NCBI GenBank assembly: GCA_963969365.1
Contig: OZ017759.1
Coordinates: 2,046,001-2,110,000 of the forward strand
Source: Asterochloris sp. CNOR1
Taxonomy: Eukaryota; Chlorophyta; Trebouxiophyceae; Trebouxiales; Trebouxiaceae
Reading direction: 5' to 3'
DNA: 64,000 nt
Shown: positions 1,075-64,000 of the stretch, piece after piece
How the letters are laid out: the number at the start of each line of letters is the position of its first letter
How positions within the stretch are numbered: position 1 is the stretch's first letter
Made by a program: the position numbers and the translations under genes
The notes under the pieces: generated by a model
What the model saw: the letters and a program-made list of their open reading frames with translations, nothing else
The model's database searches: none
What the model was told of the DNA's origin: nothing

Positions 1075-4000
1075 TCAGAGCAGCCGGGCCAGCTTGCCAA
1101 AGGACATCACTGGGGCAGTCAGGCCCAGCCCCACTGCGGTGCGCAGGCACTGCTCAGCCTCGTCTGGGCGTCCCTGCAGCTCATGCACCCTGCCTAGGCT
1201 GTACCAGCCATCACGCCGGTGGGGCTCATAGCGCAAGCCATCAACCAGGTACCCCTGCAGCAGTGGCAGGCAGCAAAAGCATAAGCAGGCAGCGGCAGGG
1301 ACACTTCACCAGGGCAAGCTCACCACCATGTGGGCCCACAGGTGGCAGGAATTCTTGCCAGCAGTTAAATGATCACCGATCCTGCCTCAACACCACGGGG
1401 CATGAGCAGGCAGCAAGGGCAGGTAGGCACACTGTAAGCTCAGGGACTGTTGGTTGCAGGAGAGGTTCAGCAGAAATCATACCCACACCACTACCCGTGA
1501 TGCTGCGCCGACCGCCTCCTGCCTCTACTAGCCAGTCGTGAAGCATGGAAAGGGCCACTCAGCTGTGCAGGGTTCCCACTGAGGGCATTCTGCCAGGCCA
1601 TGCAGGCCTGGTTCGCAGCCAATTAGCACGGACATGGGCCACCAAGGTGTGCTGATTCTCACTGACGGCAGACTGCTAGGCTGTAAGGGCCCACCAAACC
1701 ACTGTGCTTTCACTGCTGGCATGCTGCTGACGACTGAGACCCCTGTCTCTGCGGCCCAGCCAGGAGTACCCACATACATGGCAATGCAGAGTGGCCCTGG
1801 TCTGTGCTTCCGCCAACAAATTAGGCACTCTGCTGCAGTGACCAGCCAGCTGGGCAGTGGTCACCTTGAGGCTGTGGCTTGTGCACAGGGCGCTTGAGTG
1901 TTCCCACTGCACAGCTCAATGAGACACTTGGCTTGCACTGCGGTTGCCTGCCACCACAGGCTGGCTGCCAAACTCACCTTGGCAATGCCAGGCCTCTGTG
2001 CAAAGAAGCCCACTCACCAGCGCATTGCGCGGCTGATCAGCACTCATACAGACAACGACGCTCAGCACCCCCCACCTTGGCAATGGTCAAGTCGTGCTGT
2101 GCCCCTTGCATTAGGTAGATTGCCCCCAGCTGTAGGGCAGCCTTGGAGTAATGCACATCAATGGCCAAGGCCGTCTCGTAGCTCTGGATGGCTGCCGACA
2201 TGTTGCCCTCTGCCTGCATTCAGCGCAAACAGCATTTCTTACTTTCACAACTTGCAGGTCCACCTGATCTGACTTGCAGCACAGGTAGGCACACACCAAC
2301 CCCATAGGCACGATTCTAGAGCACCACGACTATCCCAGACAGGCTGCCTGGAAGGCAAAGATCAAGAGGCAGAGAGCACAGGCAGGCAATGCAGTGGTCT
2401 TTGGCATGGTTGCCGGCAGCAGCGCCCAAGAAACATGCTTAGAAGCTCAACGAGAGCACGATTGCATACCAGCAGCCACACAGACACGCGGATCTCCCAC
2501 AGACAGGCCGATCTGCCGTACCCGCCCACTTAAGAGCGGGGGCTGCAGAGGAGCGTTGATAGAGCCAATGAAGTTGCATGTGGCACAGGCACGCTCACCC
2601 ATAGCAACCCTCCTGCCAACCAGCAGGCGGCACCCACCAGCATGCAGATTGCCGCACCAAGGCTTGCCCTGCAGGCAGGCTGACCTGCAGCACCTGTTCT
2701 GCCATGTGGTGGGTTTGTGACACTCACTTTACAAAGAGTCACATGACCATGCTGCACAGGCAGGCTGACCTGCAGTACCCGCCCAGCCATGTGATGAGCT
2801 GCAGGAGACCAGGGTGTGCCATTCCTGGCCTGGCGCACGCAGAAGCGGGCATCATCCAGCTGCTGCTGGGCCAGGAAGATGCGGGACAGCTCGAGCCACA
2901 GCTGCGGGCAGGAGGCCATTGTTCAGCCAGGCACTTGAAGAGCTGCTGCTGGGCTACAGACATATAGGGCAGCTGCAGCCACAGCTGCTGGCAGGGAGGC
3001 GTTCGTCACCAAGGAATCAGAAAGAGGTAGGGCACCTCCGTCCACAGTTGCACTCAAAGCAAGGCAACATCAGCAATCAATGGTGCTGCTGCGTCAGAAA
3101 GGTGTGCAGCAGCTCCAGCCTGAGCTACAGGCAGGACGGCAGATGCCAAGCATTGCAGCTGCTGCAGAGACAGAACGATGCAGGACAGCTCTAGTCACAG
3201 CTACAGGCAGGGAAGCATTATGGGGGATCTGGAAGTGCTGCTGAGCCAGCAAGACACTCCAGCCACCAGGGAGACAGCCTGAGCAGCTGTGCATTCAGGA
3301 GCTGGTGCAGGGCACAAGCCGCACAGCAGGACACACACGAGCTGCTGCGGGGGCCAGGGAGATGCAGACACCCCTGCAAAAGCAGCTAGAGCAGGAATAG
3401 GGCCCTTACATGGCATTGACCAACCACTTCCACCATGTCGCACATCACTTGACTGGCGAGTCAACCATCTGTCCATTACAGCCAGCAACAGTTTTATCAG
3501 TGCAGCAGATGTGACGTGGCTGTTTGTCAATTACAATGCCGCCTGTTCAAGTCCTTTTGATCGCACCACGTACAGCGTGGAGCCCTTTCAAAAGCATACG
3601 ACCCCCAAGCAGGTAGACCCTGAGACTGCACGCTGCTGAGTACATCGTGACGGTGTGGCAGGGTAGTGCTAAAGTGCGGTGGGACACCTCCCGCACTCAG
3701 TAAATGAGAGCTGCAAAGCTCTAAAGGCACTCACATCAGACTCCTGCAGGCGCAGAGAGTGCTGCTGGGCCTCGGTGTGCTGCTCCGTGTGGGGCGCCGC
3801 CTGCTGCACGCGAGCCATGAGATGCGCCAGGCTCTGCAGAGCAATGGCCCCATCCCCTTCTGCCAGGTGCAGTCGTGCCTGCAGCACCAGTGAGACATGA
3901 GTGAGCATGCAGCAAGCAGCATGCACGCCACCAGGTGGGCTCAGCACTGTCCACTCCCAGATGCCTGTGGTGCCAGGAGATTCATTATGAGCGTACCGCT

Positions 4001-7000
4001 GCGCGCACAAAGTTTGGATGGGCCAGGCTGCTCCCCACAGGGCCAGAAACCTTTCAAGTAATACTTGCTGGCCTGCCCCGCATGGGGCGCTGCCTGCAGC
4101 ACATTGCCATGCTGTGTGCGAGGCTCTGCAGTGCAGTGACTCTGTCACCTTCTGCGAGGTGTAGCCATACCTGCTGTGCTGGTGAAAAGCCGATGAGCAT
4201 GTTGCATGCTGCATGCATGCCAGAAGAAGAACAGGGTTCTCGTCTGTGTGCAGACACGCCTGCAACACCACAACATTCCGTGAACATATTGCTGCGCATG
4301 CAACACCAGAGGGGCCAGGGTGCTCCCCACAGGACCAGAGATTTTCACAGGGGCCCCTCCTGGCCTGCTCCGTATGGGGCGCAGCCTGCAGCACACGTGG
4401 GCGCGGCTCTGCAGTGCATTGGCTACGTCTCCTGCTGCCAGGGGTTGCCACACCTGCAGTGCCATTGAAAAGCTGATGAGCGTGTTACATGCTACATGTA
4501 TGCCACCAGGTGACCACAGCAGGGTCCCATGCCACCAGATGCACCTCGCCTGCATCAAAGCGAAGGAAATGAGCTGCTCAGATGTTCACGCAGGCGATGG
4601 AGAGGCGCAGCCCGTGAGAGAAGCTGAGACTGAATCCAGCATTCTCACAAAACAGCTGACAGGCCAAAAGCCATTCAACAAGCACCCACCTTGATTTTGA
4701 GCAGCAGCGGGCTGTAAGTTGGCCCTGCCTGGCTGAAACCAGCCTCAGATGCTGCCAGTGCCTGGGGCAGTTCCTGCTGTGCAGACAGCACAAGGGCAAG
4801 CAGTGCCCATGACGGGCCGTGCTCCCCCTGGGACGCTGCCAGGGCCTGCTGCGCGTGCTGCAGGGCGGCAGGCAGCTGGCGGGCCTCCGCCTGCAGACGC
4901 AGGTCGGGCATGTTGGGCATGCAAGCATGCGTGTGCTGGCGTGTGGACCTGGTCTGCTTGGTGGAAGAGCGGCAGGTAGCCAGCAGGCCCCTGCCTGTAC
5001 GCCTGTGCAAACTGTGCAGAGGGGCTCTTGGGCTCAGGGCTGCTGTGCAGTGCAGGTGCAGAGCTGAGACTCTGCCAGGGCCTGCTGCAGGTTGGCACCA
5101 ACAACCACAGCTGGCAGGAAAATATGCTGTCAGCCTGTGCTGCAGGGCAGCAGGCAGCTACCGGGCCTGAGGCTGCAGGCGGACAGCAACGAGGGCTCCA
5201 GGAGTACTGTGCACGCCTTTGAGTGCACAGATGATTTTGCTGGGCCCCACAGGCAGGCATTGTTCAGCGAAACTGCTGGTCACCCTTTAGCACGAGTGGT
5301 TCGTGCCATTTTTGTGACCTCCTACAGATTAGTAAAAACACCAGCAAAGCCAGGCGGCTGGTGCCTGGACTACCTCGCCACCAGCAGGTCACACAATCAC
5401 GTGACAGTGTGGGTCGGATGTGTACCCTGCAGCTGCTCACTGCAGGCAGTCCTAGCTTGATCAAACACCTGCATTTCTGTGTCAAACACCAGGCTTGCAG
5501 ACAGACAGCTCCCTGACTGTCGCCTCGGGCGGCCCAACACTGTGCATCAGCCTGTCTGCCTTCCAAGGATGCGGTGCCAGCACCTTCCCTCAGACTTTGG
5601 GCAGGATATACACGTGCTAGGGGCGCCATGCCCAGGCCATGCAATGCGCACCTGTCAAGATGCGAAAGAGAGCTGCCCACCTCAAGAACTCCAAGGTTAT
5701 AGAGCACGTCGGCGTCCTGGGGGTCAATCTCCAGGGCCTGCCTCAGGTGCAGCAGGCCCTCGTCTTGTGACGCAGCACGCTCCGCCTGGGGCAGCCCTGG
5801 CTGGGCTGCGGCCGCCCCCAGCACCACACCCAGAGCCTTGTGGGCACGCGCCTGCTGCACCAGGGACTGCTTGCGCGTGGTCTTGACTGCCCGCCTGCAG
5901 CGGTCCAAGAGCCACGTCCTGGGCCGGCAAGCAGTTATACCTTGCTGTGATTGATCTGTGTTGGCCAGGTGTCATACAGGGCTGTGCGTGGTCCTCACTG
6001 CCCGCCTGCGGTGCAGTGCGGTCTTCTTGTGCCTTTGCGACTGGGTCCTTGGGCCTGCTGCCAGTGGCTTGTCTTGTGTGCTATCAACAGAGCAGCAGGA
6101 CTGGTGGCATGGCACCATCCTTCAGCAACCAAACAGCACTCAGGTATCCCACACAGAAAGCCACCAGCGCCACAACTGCACCAGCATTCCCGGCTGCAAG
6201 AGCTGGTGAGCAGAAGATGCGCCTTTGGGGGGAAGGTGGGCAGCCGCCGCCTTTGGGGCAAAGATCGGCACCCAGTTTTGTGCAGGCAGAGCTGGCGGGC
6301 CCGTTCAACAGCCGCAGCTGCCACCTGCTGCCCCACCTGGCCATGATGACTGCGTCCTGGACAGCCACAGTGCTGCCTGTCTGTAACAGCGCCTTGGTGA
6401 GCAACAGCAGTGTGGTGGCATTGCTCTTGTGCTCATCTAGCAGCACGCGAAGCGCCAGCGTGGCACGGGCAGCCTCCCCTGCAGCCATCAGTGCCTGCAG
6501 AGCCACGGAGCGTCTTTGTTGGGCAATCAGTGGGACTGAAAACAGCATGAGCTGCTAGCCTTGCTGCACACAACCGCCTGCGCAGCTGCCTGTGCCTGCA
6601 GACGCATTCTTTTTCTGGTGCGACTGTGACTTGCAGGCTTCGGAACAATATGAGCAGCGCCAGTGCTGCTACAGGAGCCACCTGATCAGGGACAGTAGCC
6701 TTGCTATGCAATCAGAAGGCCTGGTCACAGCGTCAGTGTTCCTTCAACATGCACCTAAGCTGGACGACAACAGCCTTTGCCATGCAATCAGCGGGAGATG
6801 AGTACAGCAAGTGCAACGTCAGCACTCAACTGCAGTCACTGGCACCTGCAGGTGCAGTGTTGCCCTGGTTTGACTGTCAGTTGCATGCTCAGCTCTCGGC
6901 GTCCGCTAGTGTTATAAGCCAACAGAGGCCAGCAGCCTGGCACATTGCCTGCACGCACAGCGAGCAGGAGTGGCAAAGCCAGCAGATGAGGGCGCCTGTT

Positions 7001-8028: not shown

Positions 8029-8528
8029 GCCTAATGACTAGCTGGCCTCAACGTGGTGGGCCTGCAGGGCCGCAGGATGTGCAGCTGGCTGCCTGCAGGA
8101 CCGCACCCCCAGCCAGACCCTTTTGATTGGCTGTTTACCGGCGCTGGGTATTGGTGTGGCAGCACTAGTGGTTGGCCGGTGGCAGAGATGCTGCTTGTAG
8201 TCACTGGAGAGACCTGCAGACATCAGACATGCCTCAGGCTCATTGCTGGCATGCTTTTGCTCAGCTGAGCGTGAGATGCCCTGCATGGCATGCCGAGCAC
8301 ACTAGCAGGGGAAGCACTCGGCTCGTTGCAGCAGCAGTGAGTCCAGCATCTGACATGATCCATAAAAATGAGCACACAATCACCTTGCTCCCACTTCTGC
8401 ACTGCAACGCCCAGACTAGATGGCTGCGAGGCAGGAGGGGATGGCCAGGCTGCCTATACGCGGAAGACAGTAGCTGACACGAAACAGCCTTGTTGTCAAC
8501 GCTGCTGTGTGCGACCGTCAAAGCCAGC

Positions 8529-9064
8529 TTGACCGGGCCGTTTAAGAGGGAACACCTCGGACAGCTGAGTGGAGTGATCTGCACGGAAGGACCATACATT
8601 GCAGCCGCTGGCCAGGAGCCCGCTTGAGCACCTCATCCAGAGGAGCTCATGGGTGACCAGGCTGCTCTCCAGCAGCAGCAGGCTGCAGGTAAGGGCTGGC
8701 GGGTTGTCATCGTCAGCCTGAGCTGTCATGTCAGCAGCACCCTTCATGTACCACCCCAGCTGGGTATTTGGTCAAGGCAGTGGGCAGCTGTTGACCCCTG
8801 GCTGGGGAGCAGCACCTGCACTGGCGGTCCAAGGGTTTCTGGGCGCTGTTCGTGCACATGATTGGTGGCCCCTGCATAGGATCATGGCAGCTGATTCAAC
8901 CCCCGTGGTCAAGTCAACGCTGGGGGCTGGCATCTTTGTGGCTTGCAGTGTGTGTCAGAGTGAGGGGCACCTGGCACCTTGTTCTTGCCCAATCAGCCAA
9001 CCCCCATGCTTTGTCAGCATCCGCCTCTATTATTTTGTCAGGTCTGCTGTGTGGAGCTGGTCAA
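8529..9064. promoter_or_regulatory. W-box cluster upstream of WRKY gene
   Basis: Five TTGACC hexamers lie within 536 bp: + strand at 8529-8534 and 8791-8796, and - strand at 8770-8775, 8907-8912 and 9059-9064. An extra TTGAC core lies at 8913-8917 on the - strand. TTGAC(C/T) is the core of the W-box, the known binding site of WRKY factors. By my estimate about 0.5 such hexamers would be expected by chance on both strands of this length. The position upstream of a WRKY gene suggests autoregulation (inference). Confidence 0.45.
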
Positions 9065-9381
9065 CCGCAGCCCCTGAAACGCCTCACACAGATGCTAGGC
9101 TGGCATGAAGCTCCGCTGCCTCAATACCTTTGCCGCACACAGGAAGGCTTGCTGCCACACAAGAGGGCCTGCCCACTTTGCTCCCGCCCCAGCAGACCTT
9201 GCCCACTGGTGACGAGGCTGCCCTCAGCACCTGGGCATCAGCCTGTGGCAGGAGAAAGCTGCACACCCCGCTCCCCTGCGTTCTGCATGACTGCTGCTGA
9301 TCAGCAGCTGGTTGAAAGTCAGCCTGCCTGCCTGGCATCTTCGCGCAACCCTCGGCCGTTTTTTGAGGGTACCTATTCTGC

Positions 9382-9595
9382 TCTGCAGCCACGGCAGCTG
9401 CTGCCCGAGGCCCAGCACTGGCACCTTGCTGCCTGTCCTGCAGGCGTGGCAGCCACGGGGGCTGCTGCACACCCTTTCTCCAAGCATGCGCATTGCCCGC
9501 CCTGCTTCCCACATGATTGCTTCCCTGCCTTGCAGCCGTATGAGCCATGCTGCCGCAGCTCAGGCCCTGCCCCGGCACCGGCAGTTGGGGCCTGC
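9382..9595. repeat. Two echoes of WRKY exon 1
   Basis: The segments at 9382-9420 and 9530-9595 resemble the start of WRKY exon 1 at 9763-9830: CTGCAGCC, then (ATGG)CAGC(C/T)GC and a GCTCAGG run. They lie upstream of the chosen ATG. The second copy also has an ATG in an Ala/Gln-rich context, so the true start could be affected. Confidence 0.6.
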
Positions 9596-9770
9596 CTGTC
9601 ATGGACATCTGCATGCCTCTCTGTGCAAGACCTGCCAAAGTACAAGTGTGCACCGTCCTGCAGCGAGTGGCAGCTGCAGCAGATGTCCCAGCGCTTGCAA
9701 CTGGTGCCTGCCGCACATGTACACCTGCCTGACATGCCAGACAGAAACACTGTTGCTCTGCCCTGCAGCC

Positions 9771-12700: not shown

Positions 12701-15700
12701 CAGCTGGGGACTCTGCAGCCTGTTGTGTTTGATGGTGGCCTCTGACTTCCCCACTGAGATTGGCAGCTGTTGTGGCAGCTCATGTGCTTGATGGCTGCTG
12801 TTGAGGTGCGTCTCTGTGCACTTGACATCAATCATGGTCGGAAGCTGCGACGACCACCATGCAGCTGGCGTACATGGAGTGAGACTGCGCCACTGCTGTG
12901 GTGGTGCACCCCTTCTCACAAAAGAGCCCTTGCTGCTGATAGGTGCACCACCATGGCAGGCAGCGGGGTGACCGGTACAAGGCAGCAGGAGGCGCCTTGA
13001 CTGCACTCTTTGCTTGACAGTCCCTCCCTGTTGCAGTCCTAGTCCTGATGTAGCACCCTGTTCTCAGCTCACAGGTGCACCACCATGGTGGGCAGCTGGA
13101 TCACATGAAGTGTGGCTGCGCCACTGCTGTCGTGGTGCACCCCTTCTGACACAAAAGCCCATGGTGCTGACAGGTGCACCACCACGGGGGGCAGCTGGAG
13201 CATATGGGCAGCGGGCGCAGCGAGGAGCAGCGGGAGCAGGACGCCGGCCTGCTGCTGCACCTCAGCAAGGTGGGCTGCCGCTGCATCCCTGCTGAGGGGC
13301 CTCAGCAAAACTTGTCCAGGCTGCTGCTTGTGTGCGAGCCTGACATGTCAGCACATGCTTTGGGGCAGCAGGCTCTGCATGATAGTTACCAATGTGCCAC
13401 ATTCAGTGGCCAGCCCTGTTGTTCTGAACATGTACCTGGCCTGCCCGACGCCCCCACTGGTTCAACAGCAGGACACTGCAGTTGTGACAGGCACAGGCTG
13501 CAGCACAGCCCCAAGCCTGCCCCTCAAGATGCACTGGATGGCCCACAGCAGCATGTGTGAGCACTGCCAGATAACGCTCTGTGCCCCACAGGTCAACCCT
13601 GACGGCACTGCGCGAACGCTGGCGCCTGACGAGCCTGGCTTTCAGGACCAGGTGCTGGAGGCCCTGCAGAGCGTGCAGCAGGCCTACATGGCCTCCCAGG
13701 TGAGAAACCTCAAGGGTCCTACTGAGGAGTCACTGTGCTCGTGTCAGTCTCTGTTGCATCTTGACAAAAGATGCAGCGGTCGCATTGTGCTGGAGGCTCT
13801 CAGACAGAGCGTGCAGCAGGCCCACCTGGCCTCACAAGTGATCTGCGAGAGGTGCAGCAGCAGCTGGAGGAGGTCAAGCTTAGGGCTGACCTGCCACCTT
13901 GCATGTCAGGCAACCCATAGCCAGAGCAGCCCACTGGCGGGCAGAAGGTGAGAGGGATCAAGCTGCCACCCTGTTGTAGTGCTTTAATTCATCTCATCAG
14001 CCACAACTGTCATGCCAGTAGCAAATACCAGCAAGCTGAATGGTGTTCTTCAGGTAGCAGCATTGTTTTCCAGTGTGCAGGAGCTGCAACAGCTTGAGGA
14101 GGTCACCCAGGACAGTATTGCCATCAGTCTGCATATCAAGCAAACAGAGTCAGAGCAGCAGCCCCCTGGTGTGCAGGAGGAGCTGCAGCTGCTGAAGCAG
14201 ATCACCTTTCGGCTGGGTTGCCCCCCTAATCTCAGGTATCATCAACTGAAGCCCGAGCAGCAGATGCGCCCCTCTGATCTGCAGGAGGAGCTGCAGCAGC
14301 TGAAGGAGGTCAACTCGGGGCTGGAGGCACAGCTGGCACAGACGCTGGGGCAGGGGAGCAGTGGCCAGGCCAATGGCCTCCCGGGCGACAGCAATCCCAC
14401 GCTGCAGGCAGCTAATCTGGAGGTCAGTGCTGCTCTTTCATCCTTTCTAACTGGGGTGGCTCAGTTTTCAGGGGCCGCAAGCTGGTCAATGGCCTCCCAG
14501 GCATCAGCGACCCCAGAAACGTACAGCCAACTCAAAGTGGGCATTGCTTGTGACTTCTAAACTGTGTAGAACAGCTTGCAGGGGCAGTGGGTGGGCTCAA
14601 ATGATTTTGGCAGGCACTTTGGAGGTGGTCCCTCTTTCTACAGGCAGTGGCCACCCTGAGTGCATTGCTGCAAACATCACTTCATCATGTAGTCGCAGCA
14701 GTGTGGCGGAACTGGCAGGCAGGTGGCCACCCAGAGTGTGTTTATGGAACTGACATAGCTCAGCCAGTTGATGTGCTTGGCCCAGCTACTTAGTCAGGGG
14801 GCAGGCCATCAGCTTGTTGGTCAGGGGGCCAGGCCATCAAGCTCCCAGGTGGCAGCAACCCTGCGCTGCAGGTTGCTGAGCTGTGTGTGGGTGCCTGCTT
14901 ACCTCCTGGGTTGGACATAGCTGCAAGACTTTGCCTGTGATTGCTGCCTTGGGCTGCTGCTCTATGGTGCTGCTGCGTCTTGGCCCTGCCGGAACTTGGC
15001 TGTTTGTGCAACATTGTGGGTCCGTGGGAGGCTTCAGACTCTTGAACCAGCAAAAGTTGGGCGGTTGACAGGTCCCTTGCCACCATCTGTGCAAGTTTCT
15101 CTCTCGCTGTAGCTTTGTCTATATGCAGGCCTGCAATCAGGCCCAAATGCTGTGCAGCTGCTGCGTCGCACTGCATACCAATATCTGCCTGCTGCCCTAT
15201 GGCCAAGCACCTTCAGCTTTAGCCAGATATGGTGCTGCTGAACAGTTGCCAACATTAAAGTCTTTCTGTAGGCCAGCAACAGGGAGCTGGAGACTGTGCT
15301 GCTGCATGAGCGCCAGCGGGCAGAGAATTTCCTTGGAGACCTGAAAGCCTGTGTGCACAGCTTCCAGGCACATGCAGGTAGGTCCTGGCTTGTGGTGCGG
15401 GCCGGGCTCAGTCCCCACATCTGGAAGGGGTGTCTGCCTGTGTCTGGAAGAGGCGTCTGCTTGTCACTAGCATTCCAGGTGCATGCAGGTAGGTCTTTGT
15501 GGTTGCCGCGGGGCGGACATGCACACAGGTATGCCTGCATTGCAAGCGGTGTGTGCAGCCTGCGTCTTGAAGAGGTTGCTCCTTGCCACCAGCCTTCCTG
15601 GCAGATGCAGGTGGGGGCTGGTGTATGGGGCCAGGCATGCTTCTGGGTGCTGGATCTCCACCTGCGTTTGATGGAGGTATCTGCTTTAACCCCAGCCTGG

Positions 15701-16654: not shown

Positions 16655-17582
16655 ATGAGCACCTTCATGTGTAAACAGCACACACCCCTGCACCCGCAGC
16701 ACCTCAGCTTCAGGCGCCCTGCAGACGCCGCCTCAGCAGCCCATGTTGGCTGCATCATATCGGTGCCTGCTATCCCCTCAGATTGCCAGCTTACCCACAA
16801 ACGTCGGCCGTTGGCTGGCTCTCCTGCTCAGCTGCTGGTGGCAGCCAGCTTCGTGTTGGCCCGCATCCTGATCACCCCTGGAGGACTTTTAGCCCGTTGC
16901 ATGTGCAGGCTGTCTTTTGCGCGCCACCATCAGCAGCCTGCCATATGCTGCTGGCAATGGCCCAGATTGAGCTGCACAGCCCCTGACTCCCGGACATGCA
17001 GCTCAAATTGAGCTCCTTCCCACCTGCAGGCTCTCCTGCAGCTGCTGGTGGCAGCCTGCCTGATGCTGCTCGTGGTGGGCCAGGCCAGCAACCTGCCCCC
17101 TGCACAGCCCCGAAGCCCCAACCCCCAGTACAAGACTGGCGAGCATGAGCCATATGCACCCAAAGATGTGGCTGTCACGATATCCCATGGCATCAGCTTC
17201 AAGCAGGACCCTGGCGCGGGTGAGCTCTGCACAGCTCTGCTGTTTGATCAGCGTGTGTCATTGCCTGTAGTCAGGGCCTTATGCCTTGGACTGCCTGTAG
17301 TTGTGGTCTGGCACATTTAAGGAACAGCCACACTGCTTTCTCAAGATCTTTGTTGCCATCAAGACCTTTGCAGCAGGCGTGCTGCACTCAACTGTTGTTT
17401 GTGCCCATGACCATAACGATGTCTTGGGGCTTCAGTCTTATCCAGGACCCTCAGCCATCTGTGCATGTCAAGCTTTGCTCTGTGCAGTCACTGTTAAGTG
17501 CAAGCTGCTGCTGTTGCAGGTGTTTGAGCATGCTGCAGTCAGCTCACAACTGGAGATGCCAATTGCTTCTCAGCAACGCTGA
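16655..17582 (+). CDS. Small membrane-anchored or secreted protein
   Basis: I do not recognise this gene. Exons 16655-16762 (36 codons from ATG) and 17030-17219 (63 codons plus one base) join in phase. Together they give a basic start, a hydrophobic segment (ALLQLLVAACLMLLVVG) that could be a signal anchor or signal peptide, then a Pro-rich linker and a polar stretch containing YKTGEHEPYAPKDVAVTISH. A third exon probably starts at 17519 after a CAG acceptor. In phase it reads GLSMLQSAHNWRC and stays open past 17582; a different frame stops at 17580-17582. The C-terminus is therefore unresolved. Echoes of exon 2 lie at 16820-16870 and 17405-17460. A TGTAA motif follows at 17634, and the gene converges on the glycosyltransferase. 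Confidence 0.45.
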
Positions 17583-17633
17583 GCGCTTTCAAGATTGTGG
17601 GGTTCCATCAGACCCTTTGAGATTGCACAATCT

Positions 17634-17638
17634 TGTAA
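17634..17638 (+). terminator. Candidate TGTAA polyadenylation signal
   Basis: TGTAA lies just 5' of the end of the convergent glycosyltransferase coding region. Green algae use TGTAA a few bases before the poly(A) site. Confidence 0.4.
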
Positions 17639-17654
17639 ACTTCAATGGCTTGTG

Positions 17655-20600
17655 CTAGACAATTTGTTTGCGCCAGAGCTCATAAGCGTTGGAGATGGCC
17701 TTTATCATGCTAGCTGAGGCCTCAATGCCATGCACAGCTGACCTCACGTGGGTGGAAACCATGTGGCGTAGCAGGACCTGCAGTACAAATGAGGGATAGG
17801 CTCGGCAGACCTGTATTGAGCATCAGTCACAGCAGTCTTGCAGCATCACGCACTGCAGCAAGACCATCTTTGGCATCAACAGAGTTGTGTAAGAGGTAAG
17901 CACTCCTGGGAGGTGAGCACGCAGCCAGAGCCAAAAGACAGGCAAGGAGTGAATGTCACTGTCTTGCCTGGGGTCAGGGGCGCCCTGCCACAGCAGACAC
18001 GTCTCAGCAAGCACCAGCGAGTGGCCGTGCAAAGGGGCAATGCAGCCCACCTGGCAGGAGGGATCACATCTCTTTGCCAGGGCCTCTGTAAGGGCATACA
18101 GCAGATGGCGTCCCTCGGCGCTGGGGGAGTCAAACATGCGGAGGTCACTGTGATAGAAGCTGAAGCCTGGGTCAGACACTGCCACGCCCAGCTGCCACAG
18201 GCAGATCATGATCAGTGCATCGCCGCCTGCAGCAAAGGGAGCGAGGATGTGTGGCAGCTGCGACATGACGCCCCTTGCCATCCAATCAACCTTCTGTTGG
18301 GCTGCTGCAAGATTGCAGAGCGGCAATCAAGCTTCTGTTTGGCTGCTGCAAAACTTCAAAGCGGGGCCCTCCCTGGGCTGCAAGTTTAGGGCCTTGAAGA
18401 CGCGACTTTTGTCGAGGCCGAGCAAGCATGAGCAGCCCATCATCAAGCATGCACGCACTCCTTGCCTGGAGCGCCCTCCTCGCTCTGCAGGCAAGCCTGC
18501 ATCTGCTCTGGGCTGATCCGCTCCATCAGCCCCACACTCATGATGACACCTGCAGACAACACGGCATTGTAGCCTAGGGCACGGCGCCTGCCAGCATCAC
18601 CAAGTGTATGCAGGCACCACCCTTGTCCTCCTGAGCATTCAATTATGGTTGGGGATCCAGAACGCAGCCTCCAAGCAGTTGGACAGCGCCCCTTCAGCTC
18701 ACCAGGCAACCTTACTGAGTAGCTTGGGCCTCACATGTTTCATTGTCAGGCATTCTGTGCAATCTCAGCCAGAATACCCAGACCTCAACTCATGCATCTC
18801 TGAGCTGAGGTCCTGTGTCCACACCTGCACCGCCGTGGATGCTGTGGGTGCAATGACCCCAGAGCAAGGTGCAAGCCAGTGCCGCCAGCTGGCAGCACAC
18901 CAGCACGGCTGCTCATTCCCCTATGGTCTCCAACTGTACCACCAAAGATGCTGCAGGCGCACATTCAGAGGGGCAGGGATGGCACCTGCACTGGGCAGTC
19001 TACCTGGAACTGCTGTCTACCAAACAGCATAGCAGGGGACGCTGGCAATGCAAGCTCAAGGGCTGGCCATGGCACCACCTCAGATTAGCAGGCAGCCAAG
19101 AACATTGCTTGAAATCAGCTTTCCTACCTGCACCGCCATGGATGCTGTAGGTGCGGTCCCCATGCCGCGGGATGGCGCAGGTCTCTGAGAAGAAGTGCTT
19201 GAGGTCTGGAGCCCCACAGAGCAGCTCAGGGGTGCAGGGGCAGCCCACCGGTGCGTCAAAGGGCCTCCAGCCGTCCTGGGCCATGAACTCTGCAGGGGAA
19301 CGCAGTGGGTGACCAGGCTGGCCCAGAAGTGCAGGGGGAGCCGACAGGCGCGTCAAGAGGTCCCCAGCTGTCCTGTGCCACGCAATTGGCAGGGCAGGGC
19401 ATGTCTCTTGCCAACCTAGGCCACACCTCAAGCAGGTGGCCCATCAGTGACAAGGAGAGCTGCACATGATGCGGCTGCACAGGTGGGGCTCAAGGAGGGG
19501 CTTCTGCCACGAGATGTCAGCAGGCTGCTGTGCATGACATCTGGCTAGAGAGAGAGACTGCCAGCGATTTGCTTAGCTAAAGTGCTGTACCAGCCTAGCC
19601 AAAAACATGGACCGCTGACCACAACAGCAACGGGGGGGGGGGGGGGGGGGGGGCTGATGGCTGCAGATCTGAGGTCTGGGTCAACATGCTTGCCACCTTC
19701 TGGTTTGTGGCCACACGGCAGGCAGCGGGGGGCGTTCAGGTTAGGCTGGTTGCCCACAGCTCCCTGCACATCACTCCACCAGAGGTTGTCTGCAGGCAGG
19801 CACTGACTCTGTGAGGCTGCAGTGTTTTGGGAATTGCAAAGGTGGGTGTCATGCAGCCAACATCAGGCACAGTGCCAGCAGTCACTGCCAGAGGCCCTGG
19901 CCCTGTCTTGCTTGACCTTGGCCTCCACAGTGCTCCCAGGCTGGACATCAAGTCATAATGGAGCCAGACACAGCTGACAAAACCTCTCATGCAGCAGACA
20001 AGGGCCGCCCACCTGAGATGAAGTAGGGCATGCCAGGGTCCAGATCCTTGACCAAATCAAGGACTCCATCAACAAACCAGAGAGTGTCATCATCGCCATA
20101 CAGCAGCCACTTGTATGGCCTGTCTGCGAAGGCCTGCACAAGGAGGCACTAGCTCACTCAGCAAGCAGCGGCTGCAGTGCAGCACTCAGGGCTCTCCATG
20201 GCTTGCCAGTGCAGGCCAGCTCAAGCGTGTGCCCGCCCGTGACCGCTGCTGCAGTCCTGGAGACGGCTTGCCGTCAGCAGCTGTGTCAGCATGTGACACG
20301 CTGCACTAATTGAAGGAGCATGTGGGCCAGTGGACGCTGCTGCAGTGTTGGCTTGCGGCCAATGGCCTGCACAGGTGGACAATATCTCTTGCTGCACAGC
20401 AAGGAGGCAGCTTGTCGCAGCGTCAGGGACTTGCAGCTGTCTCAGCAGGGAGCAGCCCTGCAGGCTGCGTCATCAGAGGCGGCTGTGCTGCCCACAGGTG
20501 TTCTGCAAATCAGTGCCAGCTGCATGGCCTCAGCCAAAGCTCCTGATACACATCCAAGCTGCCATGTCCAACAGGTTGATGCAAGCTGCGTTGCTAAGTA

Positions 20601-22208
20601 GCCTGCACTGGGTGCCATCTGCTGTCCAGCAAGCAAGAGCTCTGCATGATCTGGTGCATGGGGGACTGGGCTGGCCTGCCGCAACGCCATGTAGTAGGCC
20701 TTAGGCGCTAGGGGGGGCAGAACCATTGCACGTGGTGAGTACCTTGCCTCAAAGCCTGGTTCTAATGGGGGTGGGCTAGAAGGTGAGGGGCAAGCAGACT
20801 GCAGCCCTTCAGGGGGCCTCTGGCCGCCGCTGCAGGGCTCCCCCGAAGTGCCAGGTCACGCAAACAGCAGCAAAGTGTCTCCCAGATCACTTGCTTGCAC
20901 CATGACTCTGCCATTCACCTGGTGTGTCAGCCAAGCGGCATGGTTTTCACAAGCGCTATCTGTACAGGATGATCAAGTGCAAGGGCCATGCAGTGCCGTA
21001 GGGCAGCACGTGGGTCACCGGGTTGCTTGGCTGGCTTGTTGATATGTGATGCACCTCACCTGGGTGGGCTAGCTGTGGGACGGCACGAGCACAAAGGCTG
21101 CCCATGCGTCCTGTGGGTGCTTGGCGCGACAGCTGGCATGTTGCTGCGTGCTGCAAGTCTCACCTGGTGGGCCAGCCAGGGCACAAAGGCTGCCCGTGTG
21201 TCTCCAAGGTGCTTTGCTCGTAGGGGCACGTCATCTGGGTAGGCCACCCAGTACTCTCCAAACATGGCTCCCGTGCCCTGCTGCTGCTGTGCGAGGGCCT
21301 CGTCATTCACAGCCACCAGAGTCCTGATGCCCTGCAGGCAGTTGATATTGTTCTCCATTCAGGCAGTCTTGAGCCTGTCACACAGGTGTCTGCAGTCCTG
21401 AGACTGACACAGGGGATCTGCCTGACAACCTGATCGGGTGTTGTGTGCTGCCAATGCCACGGCTCAGGAACACTCTAGAAGTCGCCAGCATGTGGACTGC
21501 CAAGCTGTGCATGGTGCAGGCAGCAGCAGCCCAAACATGCTGTTGCTAGATCTGTGAATTTGCAAACAGTGCTTTTCATTTTGCTCGTTTGAGCCCTGCA
21601 ATGGCAAGCAGCAGCAACATATGCATACGGCACTCAGGAAGCGCCGGCCACCGGTGCCCAATTGGCAGGCACATGTGCTGCACCACTTGAACACTCTGCA
21701 GGCAACTCCGAAGCCTGCAGCTCACGCTGTGAGTCCCGCGCCACTGGCGCCCCGCGGCCACCACGGGCACATGCGCTGCATCAGCTGGCAGCGCGACCAC
21801 CAGGTCCTGCCTGGACACAGGGAATGCGCCAGCTGGCTTGCTCTCCTGTCCAATCACTGCTGCCTCTCCTGTGAACGAACCCTGAGAGCCTGCCGTGCCT
21901 GATGGATCGCTTGCCGCACTGCTCACAAGATCAAGCGGCTTCAGGCTGCTGTCCCCTGGGCCTTGGCCAGGCTGTTGCAGGGACTGCTGAGTTGCAGGCA
22001 CCTGATCAAATCTCTGCAAGAGCAGCACCTGCAAAGTCAGGGGCTTATCAACTGCAGGAGCCGGCGGCAGCCTCAGCCTGGCTTAGTGTCAGGTCATCAT
22101 CAAGCTTACCGAGAATCGGCCCAGTGCAAAGCATGTGAGTGCCACCACGGCGATCAATGCAATGTTGTACCACGGACTCTGCTTTCGCAACTTCACCCTG
22201 GGCAGCAT
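17655..22208 (-). CDS. Fringe-like (DUF604-type) Golgi glycosyltransferase
   Basis: Eight exons join in phase: 22110-22208, 21726-22028, 21164-21331, 20013-20133, 19128-19289, 18466-18549, 18051-18226 and 17655-17777, giving about 411 aa. Exon 1 encodes a type II signal anchor (MLPRVKLRKQ, then NIALIAVVALTCFALG). A Pro/Ser/Gln-rich stem follows in exon 2. The catalytic region contains KWLLYGDDDTLWFVD with the DDD metal and nucleotide-sugar motif, a GGAGG turn, and a GDALIMICLWQLGVAVSDPGF segment in the position of the conserved acceptor/acid region. This order is that of fringe-like transferases of plants (DUF604). It should transfer a sugar from a nucleotide sugar in the Golgi lumen; donor and acceptor are unknown. 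The junction between 18466 and 18226 fits best as a GC-AG intron. Confidence 0.8.
18812..18870. repeat. Echo of glycosyltransferase exon 5 donor edge
   Basis: This segment matches the exon 5 end at 19127-19160: ACCTGCACCGCC, then (G/A)TGGATGCTGT(G/A)GGTGC. It lies in the following intron in the same orientation. Confidence 0.75.
19330..19405. repeat. Echo of glycosyltransferase exon 5 acceptor edge
   Basis: This repeats 19225-19297 (GTGCAGGGG, GCGTCAA, CCAGC(C/T)GTCCTG, GCAGGG landmarks), lying about 105 bp away in the upstream intron. Confidence 0.8.
19632..19653 (+). repeat. Poly-G tract of 22 bases
   Basis: An uninterrupted run of 22 G lies within a glycosyltransferase intron. Its length is likely to be unreliable in any assembly. 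Confidence 0.95.
21055..21130. repeat. Echo of glycosyltransferase exon 3 donor edge
   Basis: The stretch CTCACCTGGGTGGGCTAGC, then GCACAAAGGCTGCCCATG and a TCC..GGTGCTT tail, copies the exon 3 border at 21158-21235 (CTCACCTGGTGGGCCAGCC, GCACAAAGGCTGCCCGTG). Confidence 0.85.
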
Positions 22209-27075: not shown

Positions 27076-27116
27076 AGATAACCCTTTTGCAACAAATCAA
27101 GGATTGTTTCAAGCAG

Positions 27117-39215: not shown

Positions 39216-40009
39216 ATGAGTTGAGCAGCTCAGGCTTGATCAGTCTTCCATGTGGTTTGCTGGTGCACAGCCGGCTTCCTGGCGCTATGCACATGGCACT
39301 TGCAGCTTAACTGAATTGCTGGTGCACAGGCCCCATCCAGGCACCTGCGCTAAACATAGCTTGCAGAACGAGTGTTACGGGTGCTGCAGAGCTATCATCA
39401 CAGGTCAAGGATGACTGCAACAGCGACAGGCTGCTGCAGGACCTGAGCAGTATCGCATCATGGCTATCCCAGCCCTGCATATGCTATACCCATTGAGAAG
39501 CTGGGCGCAGGACCACAGCCCTGCAGAGCCCTCTCAAGGCGTTCGTTCCCATGGTACTTCCAGTCAGGCCAACAGGGTGACAAGTCAGGGCTGTGCCAAT
39601 GCATCATTCCAATTGCCAGCAATCAGCAGCTGTCGCCATTGCATTCTGGGAGCCAGCAGTCAAGCAGCACAGCAAAGAGCTGATGCTGTGTGCCTTTCCC
39701 ACCCAGTGCTACTCCTGTGGCTGCGCGAGGGGCCTACAAGTGCTAATGGTTTTGGACCAGCATGACTCATCATGTCCCTCTACGCTGGCGTTCCCCGTGC
39801 AGCCCTGCGTGCCCATCATAGACCACGCCAAGCAGCAATGGCTGGAGCAAAGACTCACGCTGTGGGCGTCCCCCACCCAGCCCCACTCCTGTGGCAGCGT
39901 GGCGTGCAGCATGCGCTGGTCCCACCCAGCCACAGTCCAACGCTGCACAGGCACAGGCACAGGGCAGCTGCCTGGCCCTTGCAGACGCCGAGCTGCATCC
40001 CTAGGGTTC

Positions 40010-53700: not shown

Positions 53701-56700
53701 GCTTATTGATCCAGCCCAAACGTCCCTTTCAGGTGAAGAATGCCCAGCTGCGCCAAAGGTGATCATCCAGTACATCACAACCTTTGTCGCGCTGTTGATT
53801 GCTGCCCCTGGACACGTGTTGGTAAGCATGCTGCAGACACGTGCATGCCCAAACTCAAGCTCCCATCTCCTCTGCCCACCCCTCTCCACACCATTGCCCG
53901 TCACACTTTGCATGGGAGACTCACTGGTCTTGCGCCCCGCCAGCACGTCCATCAGCGTAGTCTTGCCAGCGCCCGAGCTGCCGACGAGGGCAGTCAAGAT
54001 GCCCGGCCGGAACGCGCCGCTCACATCGTTCAGCAGCTGCAGCATCTTCTTGCCGCCCACATCCGCCGCGCGGGGACCCAGCTTCTCAGGGTCCGTGCTG
54101 ACTTCCTGCAGGCACGTGGGAGCAGCCCAGTTCAGCCTTTGCCAACTTGCTGCTGGCTGGCTGGGTCCCAGCAAGCTCTGGGCTGCCCTTCTGCAGGGGG
54201 CTCTTCTGCAATACACATAAAACCAGCAGACTGAGGAGCTGAGATGCTGCAGTTAGATGAGGCTGTTGGCATTGACCGGCGGCACCCCATTCATACTACA
54301 GTGAGTCAGACGCACACATATGTGCATGAACGGGACCAGCATGGCTGCACCCCCTCTGCTGCAGTGCCTTGCAAGCCCTTGGCAGCTCTACTGCACCTGA
54401 CAAGGTGGGCAGGGCAAGGCTTGGGCCAGCTCAAATGACAATTTGAAGTCCTGTCACTGCTGAGGAGATGAGATGTCAAATTAAAGGTCGAAGGTTGCCC
54501 GCTGGCCCCACCTTGGTAGGTCAAACGGCGCGAACTTGATAGAAAGCAGAAGCCCATCAAGTCACAGGTATGCTCACCTTGGGCAGGTCCACATAGTAGT
54601 TGAGGTGGTGGAAGGTCAAATCGAGGGGGTTGAAGGGCAACACCATGCCCTTCCCGCCAGCAGGAATGTGGCTGCCAGACATCGTGCCCGACAAGCGTTG
54701 GGAGCCCAGGCCCTGCGCAGAGCCACCAGCCTGCAGGCAAGAACCACATTGCTGCCATATGAAACATGCGGACTTGTGAGCGGACAGCAATTTGGAAGGA
54801 ACTGCTGTGCGCAGCAACATGGTTGCCAACCTGTAGGCAGGCAAATGGGTGAGTCCGGCACAGCCTGTGGCTGCTGGCAGATCATGTGTCAAGTTTTTGC
54901 CGTTGCTGACAGCAGGCAGAGAGCAGCAGGTTGAGTGCAGGGCATTCAAGGGGCATTCAGACAGCAGATGGCCAGCCAGCAGTTGCAGGGCCAGATCCCG
55001 CTTAGGAGCTGGCAGCAGATGCTGCCTTGAATCAAGGGTCAAGGTAACTGTGTCCTACCTCTAAATGACGTTGCAACACACATGTAGCATAGGAAATATG
55101 ACTTGAAACTGCAAGGCCTGCCCAAAAGCTGTCACAGACGTGCTCACAATGTACAAGCCCTATGAAACGTTGTATGGCCTGCTGCCGCCCACAGAACAAC
55201 AAAACCGGACACAATGCTGCACAGCCTCGGACGAGTGACTTGCTACAGGCTGCACTGCGACATCAACTCAGACAGGTTGGCCCTGTTGTGGCTGACACTG
55301 TCCACCATATCAGCCGAACATGAGGACTGCTGTGCAGCCTGGCAAGACGAAAGCAGTGCTGATCCCACCTGCAGGCTGCGCTGCGACATGAGCTCTGACA
55401 GGGTGGCCCCTTTGCGGCTGCCACCTCGGCTCCCCAGGCTCCTGCGCGAGGCATTCTGGGCAGGCTGCGTCTCCCCGCCCTGCACGCCCGGGCTGGCCAG
55501 AGGGCTGAGTGGTGGGTTTGCAGGCTGCTGGGACCCCACCATGGCCTGGCCCTCTGCAATCTCACCTGCAGGGGGAGGACAGGCAGCACGTGAAATCGGG
55601 GCAGCAGACACAGCAGAGGACTGCTCACAATGATGTTGGGCACTGTGGGGTGGCCTGAGGGTGCCGGCATGATCCAAAGCATCGACAAACCCCCAGCAGG
55701 ACGCCATACGGCGACTCCTGCTGCAGAGAATCACGCTCCATGTGCAGACACCGTACCCCAGACAGGTGGTGGTCAGCACAACCCTGCCTGGCGATGCGAA
55801 AGGGGCAAGTCGGTCTGCTTTGCTGACGTGTGGCATGCAAACTCTGGGGCCCCTGAGATGTCACAACCTGCACAACCTCACCTGGCAGTATGAAGGGGTG
55901 CTGGCTGCTGCAGGGACTGATGGGCACTTGGCATGCAGATCCTGTGACTGCAATATGGCAGCGCCTTCACAAACTCACCTGGCAGTGTGGCGTGGACTGC
56001 TGGCTGCAGGGACTGGCGCTTGGCATGGCCAGCCAGAATGGTCTCCTCTTCAGGGGACAGGCGTCCACCCTCACCAGCCTGCACAGGAGGCGCACCACCT
56101 GTAATTGCCCTGCCCATTGGGAGATGCTCTGCACTCTGCTTTGTCAAACCTGAAGCGTTGCAGGCCCGTCACAGAGCCTGGTGTGCTGGTGACCCAGGCG
56201 GCGTGCATCGGTTCAGGATGGCCAGACCCTCACAGGACCCTCAGGCGCTGGCAACACCCGAGCAGGCAGCACCCTACTTCATGCATATTGCCAGCAGCAG
56301 TGCACAGATGCAACGCAGCTTGTACAAGGTGTGCCTTACAGCCGCTGCAGGTGTCAGCCTTGCAACACAACACGCACCACAATATGAGCCTTGTGCTCCA
56401 GAGCAGCTATCTCAGCCTTGGTGGGGATGACTACAGTCAGGCTCTCATTGCGGCTGGCTGGGGCGCTGGTCAGGGGGTGGGAGTGCACATTGCCGTTGGT
56501 ATGGGGGGTGCCATCGCCATTGCCCAGGGCCTGCAGGGCATGAGGGATTCTGTGGTTCATTTCAGCCTGTGGTGCAAAGCCTGACACAAGGCATGAGTTG
56601 CATGTTGCAGGCTACATGTATTGTACTGCCGCCTACGTCTCCTGCTTGCCCTGCGTGCTGAAGAAGTTCACAAGCCCACTTGTGCAGAAAGGACTGCTCA

Positions 56701-62700: not shown

Positions 62701-64000
62701 TGCTCTCATGCAAGCATGTGCAATGTGACAGGCAATCAAGACTATGCAGGGACACATGCTGCAGGAGATCTCACTGCAGCACTCACCCTCAGACAGTAGC
62801 AGGATGTCATCAAACAGGTCAAACGTCTCTGGTGCTGGCTGCAGCAGCGCGATCAGCATGGTGTAGTGCAGGGAGTGGGCGGTGTCCCGCAGCCACTTGC
62901 AGATGCTGTACGTTGTGCTGCTGTCCAGCCCTGTGCTGATCTGCAGGAATGATGTGGCAGGCTGAGACTGCATGCTCTGCCTGTGCAGCCAGCATGAGAG
63001 CAGGCTGGGAGAGCGCAGAGCGTTATGGTGCTGATGCAGGTGTCATGCAAGCTGAAATGTCAAGGCCTCTGCAAAGCTGAAAGGTGCTGCAGCAGCCTGC
63101 CGTGACTGTGGTGATGAGCTGCTGTGAGCAGAGGCAGGCAGCAGCAGCAGCAGACATGGCAAATCACAGCAAACAATGAGACCCAGACAGGAAAGCAGCA
63201 GCAGGCAGAGATATTGAAGGTCTTGCAGGAACCCACCTCGTCCATAAACAGCACCCTCTTAGGGCCCACCAGCATCTCCCCTGCAGGCCACAGGGCACAA
63301 GTCAGACTGCCAGCTTACAGCAACATTGCGCATGGCCAGTTCACATCCGCACAGCAACTCTGCCAGTGAAGCTTGGCGCCTGGGGTCAGACACATGCCTC
63401 TGGCAGTTCTGGCAACTTAGCATGCTTGCCCTGCTACCACTGAATGGCTCATGTTCGAGGCCGGCAGAGCTGCTCTCAACAGCATACGAGCTAATTGTGG
63501 ACCGCATTGAGCGCCTGGCTTGCAGAGGCAGGGTTCTGGGGCCCCATTTGACGCCCAGCTTTGTATGTGGAAGGCTCTGGCCAACAGTCAGTTGCCAGGC
63601 TTCAAGGATCAAAAGGTGGAGAAGCGCCGCTGGCATCCTGAGATACCAAGGTGCTAAGCAGAGCTTTCAATCCTGGCAGGTGCAGGCCAGATGAGCCTCC
63701 AGCCCAGCATGAGCCTTCCTCCACACGATGTCAAGCGCTGGCTTTGGCCACAGCTGAAAGCCGGCAGCCTGGCATTCCTCACCCTACACAAGAGCTTCAC
63801 CACTCAGCACAGCCGGCCGTACCTGAGATCACCCAATGCTTCTGATTGCCATCGATGCCCTGCCTTACGGCTGTGCCCACCCCGCGCCGCCTTTCATGTG
63901 CTTACAGCCGTCGAGATCTCGTCCACTCAGCACAGCCACACTGCAAGAGCTAGGGCCTTACCTGAGGTCACACGCTTCTTCTGCCCGCCGCTGATGCCCC
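46172..64000 (-). CDS. PDR-type ABCG transporter (5' truncated by window)
   Basis: Forty exons join in phase and encode about 1,330 residues; the N-terminus, including the first Walker A, lies beyond 64000. The order is end of NBD1, TMD1, long linker, NBD2, TMD2, as in full-size pleiotropic drug resistance transporters of plants and fungi (about 1,450 aa). Such proteins are ATP-driven plasma-membrane exporters of lipids, terpenoids, hormones or toxic compounds; the substrate here is unknown. Family landmarks throughout: [117 protein letters not shown] and the end KFVNFQKR. The final exon is only 12 nt (46172-46183). Exon coordinates are given in the domain entries below. Several introns carry exon echoes. 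Confidence 0.93.
47869..47908. repeat. Short direct repeat in ABCG intron
   Basis: GCACTGGGTGGAGCCC occurs twice in a row (18-bp period) within the intron between exons 47994 and 47623. Confidence 0.8.
50996..54730 (-). other. ABCG NBD2
   Basis: Exons: 54578-54730, 53925-54105, 53275-53346, 52842-52966, 52297-52407, 51740-51782, 51492-51562 and 50996-51085. Walker A is GSSGAGKTT, the Q-loop is in [11 protein letters not shown], the signature is LSVEARKR, Walker B is SIVFMDEP, the D-loop is SGLDARAA, and the H-loop His is in CTIHQPS. All catalytic elements are present. Confidence 0.92.
51313..51385. repeat. Short tandem duplication in ABCG intron
   Basis: GCTAGTGCTGAAATGCACAT and GCTAGTGCTGATATGCACAT start two copies of a unit of about 42 bp. 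Confidence 0.75.
55246..55300. repeat. Echo of ABCG linker exon 55369-55565 donor edge
   Basis: CAGGCTGCACTGCGACATCA, then GACAGGTTGGCCC(...)GGCTG, copies 55371-55425 (CAGGCTGCGCTGCGACATGA, GACAGGGTGGCCCC). Confidence 0.85.
55369..57071 (-). other. Expanded low-complexity linker of ABCG transporter
   Basis: Exons: 56932-57071, 56374-56566, 55979-56098 and 55369-55565, about 217 residues, plus about 28 more at the start of the next exon. The segment is acidic and Gly/Asn/Gln-rich ([28 protein letters not shown]) and then Ser/Pro/Gln-rich with [18 protein letters not shown], a likely phosphorylated region. This is clearly longer than the linker of plant PDR proteins. Confidence 0.8.
55778..55900. 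repeat. Two echoes of ABCG exon 55979-56098 donor edge
   Basis: CTCACCTGGCAGTATG at 55878 and a weaker CCTGCCTGGCGATGCG at 55788 copy CTCACCTGGCAGTGTG at the real donor (55975). Confidence 0.65.
57586..61880 (-). other. ABCG inter-domain segment and TMD1
   Basis: Exons: 61809-61880, 61304-61381, 60822-60968, 60360-60440, 59930-60032, 59653-59705, 59262-59372, 58762-58948, 58357-58397, 58040-58129 and 57586-57712. Hydrophobic helices include [83 protein letters not shown] and [15 protein letters not shown]. Six helices match the ABC2-type membrane domain. Confidence 0.9.
60115..60245. repeat. Intronic tandem repeat, unit about 50 bp
   Basis: Two and a half units share ACAACAA(C/T)(A/T)GCTTGTCTTT(A/G)AGGGCA(C/G)GTGC, within the ABCG intron between exons 60360 and 60032. 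Confidence 0.8.
62149..64000 (-). other. ABCG NBD1, C-terminal part
   Basis: Exons: 63962-(64000), 63237-63280, 62787-62940 and 62149-62204. The signature is ISGGQKKR, Walker B is RVLFMDE and the D-loop is STGLDSSTT. The switch segment [15 protein letters not shown] lacks the H-loop histidine, as is normal for the first NBD of PDR transporters. [19 protein letters not shown] closes the domain. Confidence 0.9.
63815..63865. repeat. Echo of ABCG exon 63962 donor edge
   Basis: GTACCTGAGATCACCCAATG, CTTCTGATTGCCATCGATGCCC copies CTTACCTGAGGTCACACGCT, TCTTCTGCCCGCCGCTGATGCCC at 63957-64000. The upstream flank CACTCAGCACAGCC is copied too. Confidence 0.85.

Follow-up and report, generated by a model that had tools for sequence, protein, structure and literature searches.

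Tandem exon duplication with alternative splicing is a known system, and internal gene duplication, that is, duplication within genes and in some cases of whole introns, was reportedly the subject of a 2009 survey by Gao and Lynch that is said to have counted duplicated exons and introns. Vaughn and Bennetzen are said to have described 'patch-mediated' duplications in rice in 2014. The small tandem duplications that arise from break repair, by way of CST/Pol alpha-primase and end-joining, are same-direction duplications of short local segments. According to the published accounts, duplication across exon/intron sequence brings splice signals along in potato RdRp and in near intron pairs of Drosophila (PMC4974935, PMC2891723), and introners are reported to touch many introns by one process (PMC9860276). 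Here, we describe a computational analysis of a 64,000-nucleotide stretch of a genome of the lichen alga Asterochloris (bases 2,046,001-2,110,000 of contig 14; genome of 56.4 Mb in 21 contigs), referred to below as the window, in which introns contain degraded copies, in the same direction, of the edge of the neighbouring exon, in many cases together with its splice site. We call these copies exon echoes.

The echoes are likewise same-direction duplications of short local segments; unlike those of break repair, they come to light for the most part as degraded copies of some age at the edges of exons. Their usual outcome is a longer existing intron rather than a new one, in contrast to the potato and Drosophila cases, and unlike internal gene duplications the Asterochloris relics are partial exon edges lying inside introns. 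One set of whole-exon copies in the window (exon 3735-3878, copied to 4064-4534) would have resembled a tandem exon duplication at birth, but these copies have decayed and are missing in three of three homologues in the one gene compared in this way, and echo splice sites show no conservation of the kind that alternative splicing of duplicated exons would entail. As with introners, many introns are touched by one process; a shared family sequence of the introner kind was not found among the sampled introns (0 of 2850 other-gene comparisons at score 38). The literature was searched by titles and abstract openings, and none of the matches listed describes relics like these from any alga. Events of this kind are already known, while the density of the echoes, their outward placement and the reading of exon edges as a datable record do not turn up in those titles and openings. 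The lengthening of introns rarely leaves a readable trace, since both copies of a duplicated piece of intron decay. In a border-spanning duplication the conserved exon serves as a reference, by which the event remains recognisable and can be given a direction and a date much later; if the pattern holds in relatives, exon edges would be a general record of duplication history.

The analysis covered a sample of 328,160 bases of this one genome, the window included. Gene models came from a self-written and self-trained gene finder that was then retrained on the 328,160 bases, giving 747 predicted introns (median 229 nt) and a mean exon of 125 nt. All exons are our own predictions, and the models hold errors: some echoes were called as exons, which is also a warning for annotation in general, and F-box/LRR-like frames at 24-28 kb were missed. 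Pfam backs three of the six window proteins tested, namely the TPR, WRKY and PDR transporter proteins; a glycosyltransferase-like gene has relatives in Trebouxia and no Pfam hit. The base N is absent from the 29 sampled sequences that were examined for gaps, and assembly collapse of young copies is a caveat on the age results given below. The published A. glomerata draft is a 454 assembly of 56 Mb in 151 scaffolds, with a mean of nine introns per gene and a GC content of 56-62% over 98% of it (PMC6652019); the genome analysed here is therefore a different assembly, from that species or one very near to it.

Same-direction local repeats are strongly enriched in the sample at spacings of up to about 300 nt. 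A banded aligner recovered 182 local direct pairs reaching score 46 in the 328 kb, against 3 pairs at a control spacing of 2 kb (304,000 of the 328,160 bases) and none in the complement control. A sequence-only reading of the window had proposed that introns carry diverged copies of the neighbouring exon border in the same orientation, on both acceptor and donor sides and usually 80-300 bp away. Each part of that description is borne out: of the 12-mers that recur at a distance of 50-300 nt, 771 are in direct and 55 in inverted orientation; a match of score 38 to the exon's own intron is found both for donor edges (26 of 471) and for acceptor edges (39 of 479); and the spacing of exon-intron pairs has quartiles of 91, 136 and 217 nt. 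Equal matching of exon edges to unrelated introns, which the same reading had named as its refutation, was not found, since own introns gave 65 matches in 950 tests and introns of other genes 0 in 2850, with 0 of 950 in dinucleotide-shuffled own introns and 1 of 950 in their reverse complement (introns of at least 100 nt and edges of at least 40 nt were used).

Of the 708 sampled introns at least 60 nt long, 171 include 25 nt or more of local copy, and recognisable local pairs take in 11.4% of the intron bases in the sample. Echoes occur in 22 of the 33 sampled sequences, and the pattern is thus wider than the window. Of twelve stretches singled out by the sequence-only reading, eleven do contain a copy, local and direct, of some predicted exon or of its edge, ten being recovered by the banded search and one, 5065-5195, by separate alignments; the twelfth, 63815-63865, falls outside the gene models and pairs only weakly with 63954-63999 (score 44). 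The pair at 5065-5195 was missed by the banded run over the whole window and is recovered when a short region is run, and we think that a strong neighbour on a near-identical diagonal hides it. The banded search conceals some weaker pairs next to strong ones, and the counts are therefore low.

The placement of the echoes is strongly directional. With at least 15 nt of exon in the match, 103 rows are placed outward across the copied border and 6 inward, compared with 48.0 +- 6.4 and 22.4 +- 4.4 when the same pairs are randomly relocated; each row is a pair-by-border combination, so that arrays count repeatedly, and the number of distinct borders with an echo is 76. An outer copy across the same border is what must result, because a tandem duplication spanning one border has to place its copy there. 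Several introns hold arrays of echoes with a period of roughly 70-110 nt, which suggests that unit length equals spacing. In 62 outward pairs whose copies stand at least 30 nt apart, the sequence separating them resembles the flank on the far side of the echo, at score 28, in 25.8% of cases, against 6.7% in controls, as tandem units predict.

A predicted exon on contig 4 (L024), which matches NAD kinase in Pfam (1.9e-14) and in six PDB sequences (best 1.7e-12), points to a clean example of tandem duplication across exon borders. On its acceptor side, 8631-8758 is repeated at 8761-8888 across the acceptor at 8841, over 128 nt at a spacing of 130 and with 91% identity, and the repeat has sharp ends, matching falling to background outside it (9 of 31 positions before, 4 of 32 after). 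The same acceptor edge recurs twice more at greater distance, with 91% identity over 55 columns and 81% over 63. On the donor side the last part of the exon is repeated at a spacing of 96, with 77 of 82 positions identical over 9020-9101 (36 of 40 plus 41 of 42). The NAD-kinase homology extends slightly beyond the first copy, to residue 88 or, in one PDB match, 89, and the second copy therefore lies outside the conserved protein; the gene finder had called it exon. The outer acceptor, if used, adds 130 nt and shifts the frame.

The proposal that short duplications across exon borders underlie the pattern is supported by the common orientation, by the occurrence of copies on both sides of exons and by their outward placement, and we consider it probable that the echoes are best explained in this way, as short tandem duplications that are mostly old. 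Each echo would begin when a short border-spanning piece of DNA is duplicated in tandem. Of the two splice sites that result, the inner one, which adjoins the rest of the exon, would stay in use and leave the mRNA unchanged, and the outer copy would turn into intron, add length and decay without constraint. Purifying selection would meanwhile hold the exon copy, making border-spanning duplications recognisable for longer than duplications internal to an intron. Most of the long copies still visible would stem from an older period of frequent duplication, with a neutral divergence since then of about 0.15 per lineage in a simulation with assumed rates. Going by the literature, fill-in and end-joining of staggered breaks would be the likely molecular source.

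The sequence-only reading had also pictured a genome full of intermediates, and this part of it is not supported. Among pairs of at least 45 aligned columns, identities taken in 0.04 steps from 0.64 to 1.0 number 9, 23, 23, 22, 14, 0, 2, 0 and 0 for exon-intron pairs and 5, 10, 10, 6, 6, 1, 0, 1 and 0 for intron-intron pairs, and they thus cluster at 64-84%; shorter pairs hold most of the identities of 84% or more. At this length, 84% is reached by 2 of 93 exon-intron, 2 of 39 intron-intron and 4 of 94 exon-exon pairs, and at any length by 17 of 119, 10 of 53 and 9 of 105, respectively. A simulation with a constant rate of duplication calls for 40% and 49% above 84%, against the 2 of 93 and 2 of 39 observed, while an episode ending at a divergence of 0.15 yields 9% of exon-intron and 3% of intron-intron pairs above 0.84 against an observed 2% and 5%. 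The simulated rates are assumptions, exons being set to evolve at a quarter of the neutral rate and indels to occur at a tenth of substitutions. In long arrays (L024, L031) averaged identity masks young units, and the shortage of young copies is somewhat overstated as a result. Exact repeats of at least 40 nt within 1 kb number 3 in the 328 kb, at two places, and duplication has therefore not wholly stopped. A young array is found at L031 3536-3850, where a predicted exon holds three tandem units, each of about 96-105 nt, that are 86-90% identical and include an exact stretch of 83 nt.

Conservation of the exon copy leaves its own trace. Exon-intron pairs number 79, compared with 54.0 +- 5.8 under random placement, and intron-intron pairs 33, compared with 44.8 +- 5.1, a relative excess of about 2; simulations in which the exon copy is conserved give an excess of 1.39 at a constant rate, 1.51 if duplication ends at 0.10 and 1.99 if it ends at 0.15. 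Mismatches by codon position of the exon copy (.213,.222,.273) fit an exon copy under selection, with some of the changes synonymous in the exon. A hotspot of duplication at borders was considered, border-intron pairs numbering 65 against 36.4 +- 5.1, and was rejected, as conservation of the exon copy predicts about an equal excess; the process therefore need not target splice sites. Copies born already diverged were also simulated, in view of the rarity of young pairs, and would not be needed once the model ending at 0.15 fits both classes roughly, although some may exist. Repeat-induced mutation was likewise set aside, the exon-to-intron changes (C>T.115, T>C.146, A>G.137, G>A.091) being without an excess of C to T. 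An apparent depletion of duplications between genes (1 intergenic pair against 12.1 expected, 5 at score 40) was dropped because the 'intergenic' stretch at 24-28 kb holds F-box/LRR-like frames, as read from translations. A wider proposal, which we put forward only tentatively, is that tandem duplication of roughly 100-nt units once swept the whole genome of the Asterochloris lineage, in a wave that contributed at least a tenth of the intron DNA and has since largely died down, so that exon edges now preserve past intron growth in a form that can be read and dated.

Several observations weigh against tandem duplication as a full account. Rows with more than 80% identity are mostly non-adjacent, with a median ratio of length to spacing of 0.29 over 28 outward rows, where simulated adjacent tandem duplications give larger medians of 0.51-0.91; an equality of unit length and spacing holds in the NAD-kinase case and fails in most of these echoes. 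In the 22 such rows with at least 30 nt between the copies, the unit halves reach score 36 in only 2, both from one border (L027). The intron flank beyond +8 can be aligned in 10 of 29 pairs with an exon-part identity of at least 0.8 (exon part of 25 nt or more), and in all pairs of a simple simulation. Indels, repeated rounds of duplication and selection of lucky survivors reduce this gap in adjacency without removing it. Young copies are also rare, the 9% of exon-intron pairs that the model ending at 0.15 places above 84% exceeding the 2% observed, and the gene models are self-made and contain errors.

These points lend some weight to local templated insertion, in which template switching during break repair copies an exon-edge fragment of about 40-80 nt into the intron at a distance. 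It would account for the many high-identity pairs that are parted by unrelated sequence, and for homology that often stops within a few bases of the splice site, as it does less often in simulated adjacent duplications. It does not predict outward-only placement (103 versus 6), the scarcity of inverted copies or the regular arrays, however, and the best-resolved young case, L024, is adjacent. As an account of the echoes as a whole we regard templated insertion as unlikely, although template-switch copying of short fragments may explain the remaining part of the set.

Tandem duplication across a border also copies the splice site, and the sequence-only reading had held that each copy carries a working one. 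This holds only in part: GT survives in 30 of the 49 echo donors and AG in 29 of the 49 echo acceptors, but the others have lost them, and the expected retention of the dinucleotides, taken from pair identity squared, is 0.588 for GT and 0.576 for AG. Echo splice sites decay neutrally, neither kept nor purged. The 25th percentile of real sites is reached by 23 of 49 echo donors and 16 of 49 echo acceptors, and most copied sites are no longer strong. The consensus from which they derive had been overdrawn on one side: CTGCAG describes acceptors fairly well (67-100% per base), but GTGAG is a majority rather than a near-universal form of donors, which read AG/GTGAG with weaker agreement than the acceptors show.

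Selection might instead maintain the echoes for a part in regulating splicing, as decoys or as alternative edges of the exon. Homology does peak at the border, with a donor match of 0.80-0.88 at the three positions around it, and a score at or above the 5th percentile of real sites is still found in 27 of the 49 echo donors; yet the retention of GT and AG equals the neutral expectation, the interior of introns at the 5th-percentile threshold has 14.6 donor-like and 9.8 acceptor-like sites in every kb anyway, and an echo-derived segment of the TPR gene model is absent in three of three homologues, all of which makes a regulatory role very improbable. That CTG/CAG-rich coding edges simply match CTG/CAG-rich introns, or that protein repeats spill over, is hardly credible and was rejected, for although splice signals and coding ends share CTGCAG-like words and one gene encodes a TPR protein, score 38 is reached in none of the 2850 other-gene and 950 shuffled tests against 65 of 950 own introns, and the far and complement controls agree.

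The suggestion that border-spanning tandem duplication lengthens introns is supported by the data. Introns with an exon-edge echo have a median length of 446.5 nt, against 229 nt for those without, and the share of introns with an echo climbs from 1 of 139 at 60-120 nt to 33 of 104 at 450 nt and above. The difference supports intron growth and is not proof of it; longer introns also offer more room for echoes. The further suggestion that new introns arise in this way, as in the AGGT model of intron gain by tandem duplication, stands on less secure ground: introns that map donor onto acceptor at the duplication spacing number 7 of 747, against 1.82 +- 1.25 in 100 shuffles, among which the maximum is 6. 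Intron gain by duplication is only weakly indicated, and several of the seven introns are, we think, doubtful gene models. At L025, within a 66-nt pair (1900-1965/1994-2059, 91% identity), a predicted intron, 1921-2008, maps donor onto acceptor; it is a candidate intron-like duplication, and the flanking predicted exon of 6 nt is doubtful.

Within the window, independent proteins confirm which copy is the exon in the TPR and glycosyltransferase-like genes. In the TPR gene, on the minus strand, a donor-edge echo at 2672-2711 matches exon 2757-2796 (85% over 40 nt), the source peptide HHMAGRVLQ corresponding to HHMEGRV in Myrmecia and Trebouxia. An array of at least four acceptor-edge echoes of exon 2839-2901 occupies 2941-3396 on the same strand, the nearer copies about 66-77 nt apart; the acceptor at 2902 has three strong and three weak matches in the adjoining intron, and the exon peptide, LWLELSRIFLAQQQLDDARFC, has close counterparts in three of three homologues. 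The exon at 3735-3878 (minus strand) is supported as real by protein alignment with three homologues, and two decayed copies of it, with flanking intron, lie at 4064-4534 on the minus strand at a spacing of about 290 nt (3771-4233/4064-4516, score 318; 3747-3959/4330-4534, score 130). The gene finder had called pieces of 4064-4534 as TPR exons, a call that we reject, as the 35 amino acids thereby added are missing in three of three homologues. A further acceptor-edge echo on the minus strand, at 5137-5181, copies 4855-4899 at the edge of exon 4690-4890 with 38 of 45 positions identical.

On the plus strand, alignments place several acceptor-edge echoes at 9377-9682, upstream of the acceptor at 9769 in a gene with a Pfam WRKY domain. 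An echo together with intron-intron copies lies at 12853-13107 (plus) upstream of the acceptor at 13195 (12853-12967/13079-13198, score 148; 13067-13107/13166-13206, 88%). The donor edge at 13652-13703 is echoed at 13787-13841 (plus; 88% over 52 columns), with 83 nt of unrelated sequence between, and an acceptor-edge echo of 17026-17068 is present at 16814-16858 (plus; 86%).

A donor-edge echo at 18823-18851 (minus) is identical to its source, 19126-19154, at 27 of 29 positions; the peptide TYSIHGGA has the counterpart TYSMHGGA in two Trebouxia homologues and one from Apatococcus. The acceptor edge at 19224-19304, with the peptide FMAQDGWRPFDAPVGCPCTPE, is echoed without gaps at 19321-19401 (minus; 74% over 81 nt); PFDAPVGCPCTPE has close counterparts in the homologues. 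For the donor at 21164 there are two echoes at about 94 nt, and farther matches are weaker and irregular; the first, at 21030-21128 (minus), aligns with 21132-21220, and its source peptide has close counterparts. At 31078-31159 (minus) lies an acceptor-edge echo of 30986-31061 (75%), in a gene that presumably encodes a peptide-methionine sulfoxide reductase and for which Pfam gave no hit.

Both ends of one intron are echoed on the plus strand, the donor edge 34787-34842 at 34959-35014 (84% over 56 nt, gapless) and the acceptor edge 35335-35392 at 35245-35302 (76% over 58 nt). The donor edge at 39846-39899 has an echo at 39671-39725 (minus; 81%). Four donor-edge echoes of 41346-41388 (donor 41352) form an array at 40919-41272 on the minus strand with a period of about 100-110 nt; aligned with 41019-41380, the array shows a shift of 100 nt at 66% identity, and the copies stand at intron positions 80, 192, 289 and 389.

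The last of these echoes belongs to a PDR-type ABC transporter gene, whose best protein match, Astpho2/5114 (Astpho2 is, we assume from its label, Asterochloris), is identical at 182 of 182 and 325 of 327 residues in two stretches and at 638 of 717 in a third, where the differences fall mainly at places in which the gene models disagree. A donor-edge echo at 55243-55298 (minus; 82% over 56 nt) copies exon 55369-55565, a predicted exon that is absent from the public Astpho2 gene model. At 55882-56078, three tiny predicted exons in and beside a tandem copy of spacing 94 nt contribute the residues IFRNVVI, which have no equivalent in the public Astpho2 protein, and they are probably an echo misread as exon.

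The window holds further repeats. A direct duplication of 2.1 kb (24198-26264/26975-29039; 77% identity by blastn and about 79% by another alignment) carries F-box/LRR-like frames on the minus strand, as read from translations, and its divergence is similar to that of the echoes. A long exon-like frame at 36605-37543 contains several internal repeats at spacings of 40-290 nt. Finally, a direct pair of about 500 nt (43553-44046/44987-45469) has 65% identity and a spacing of 1434 nt.

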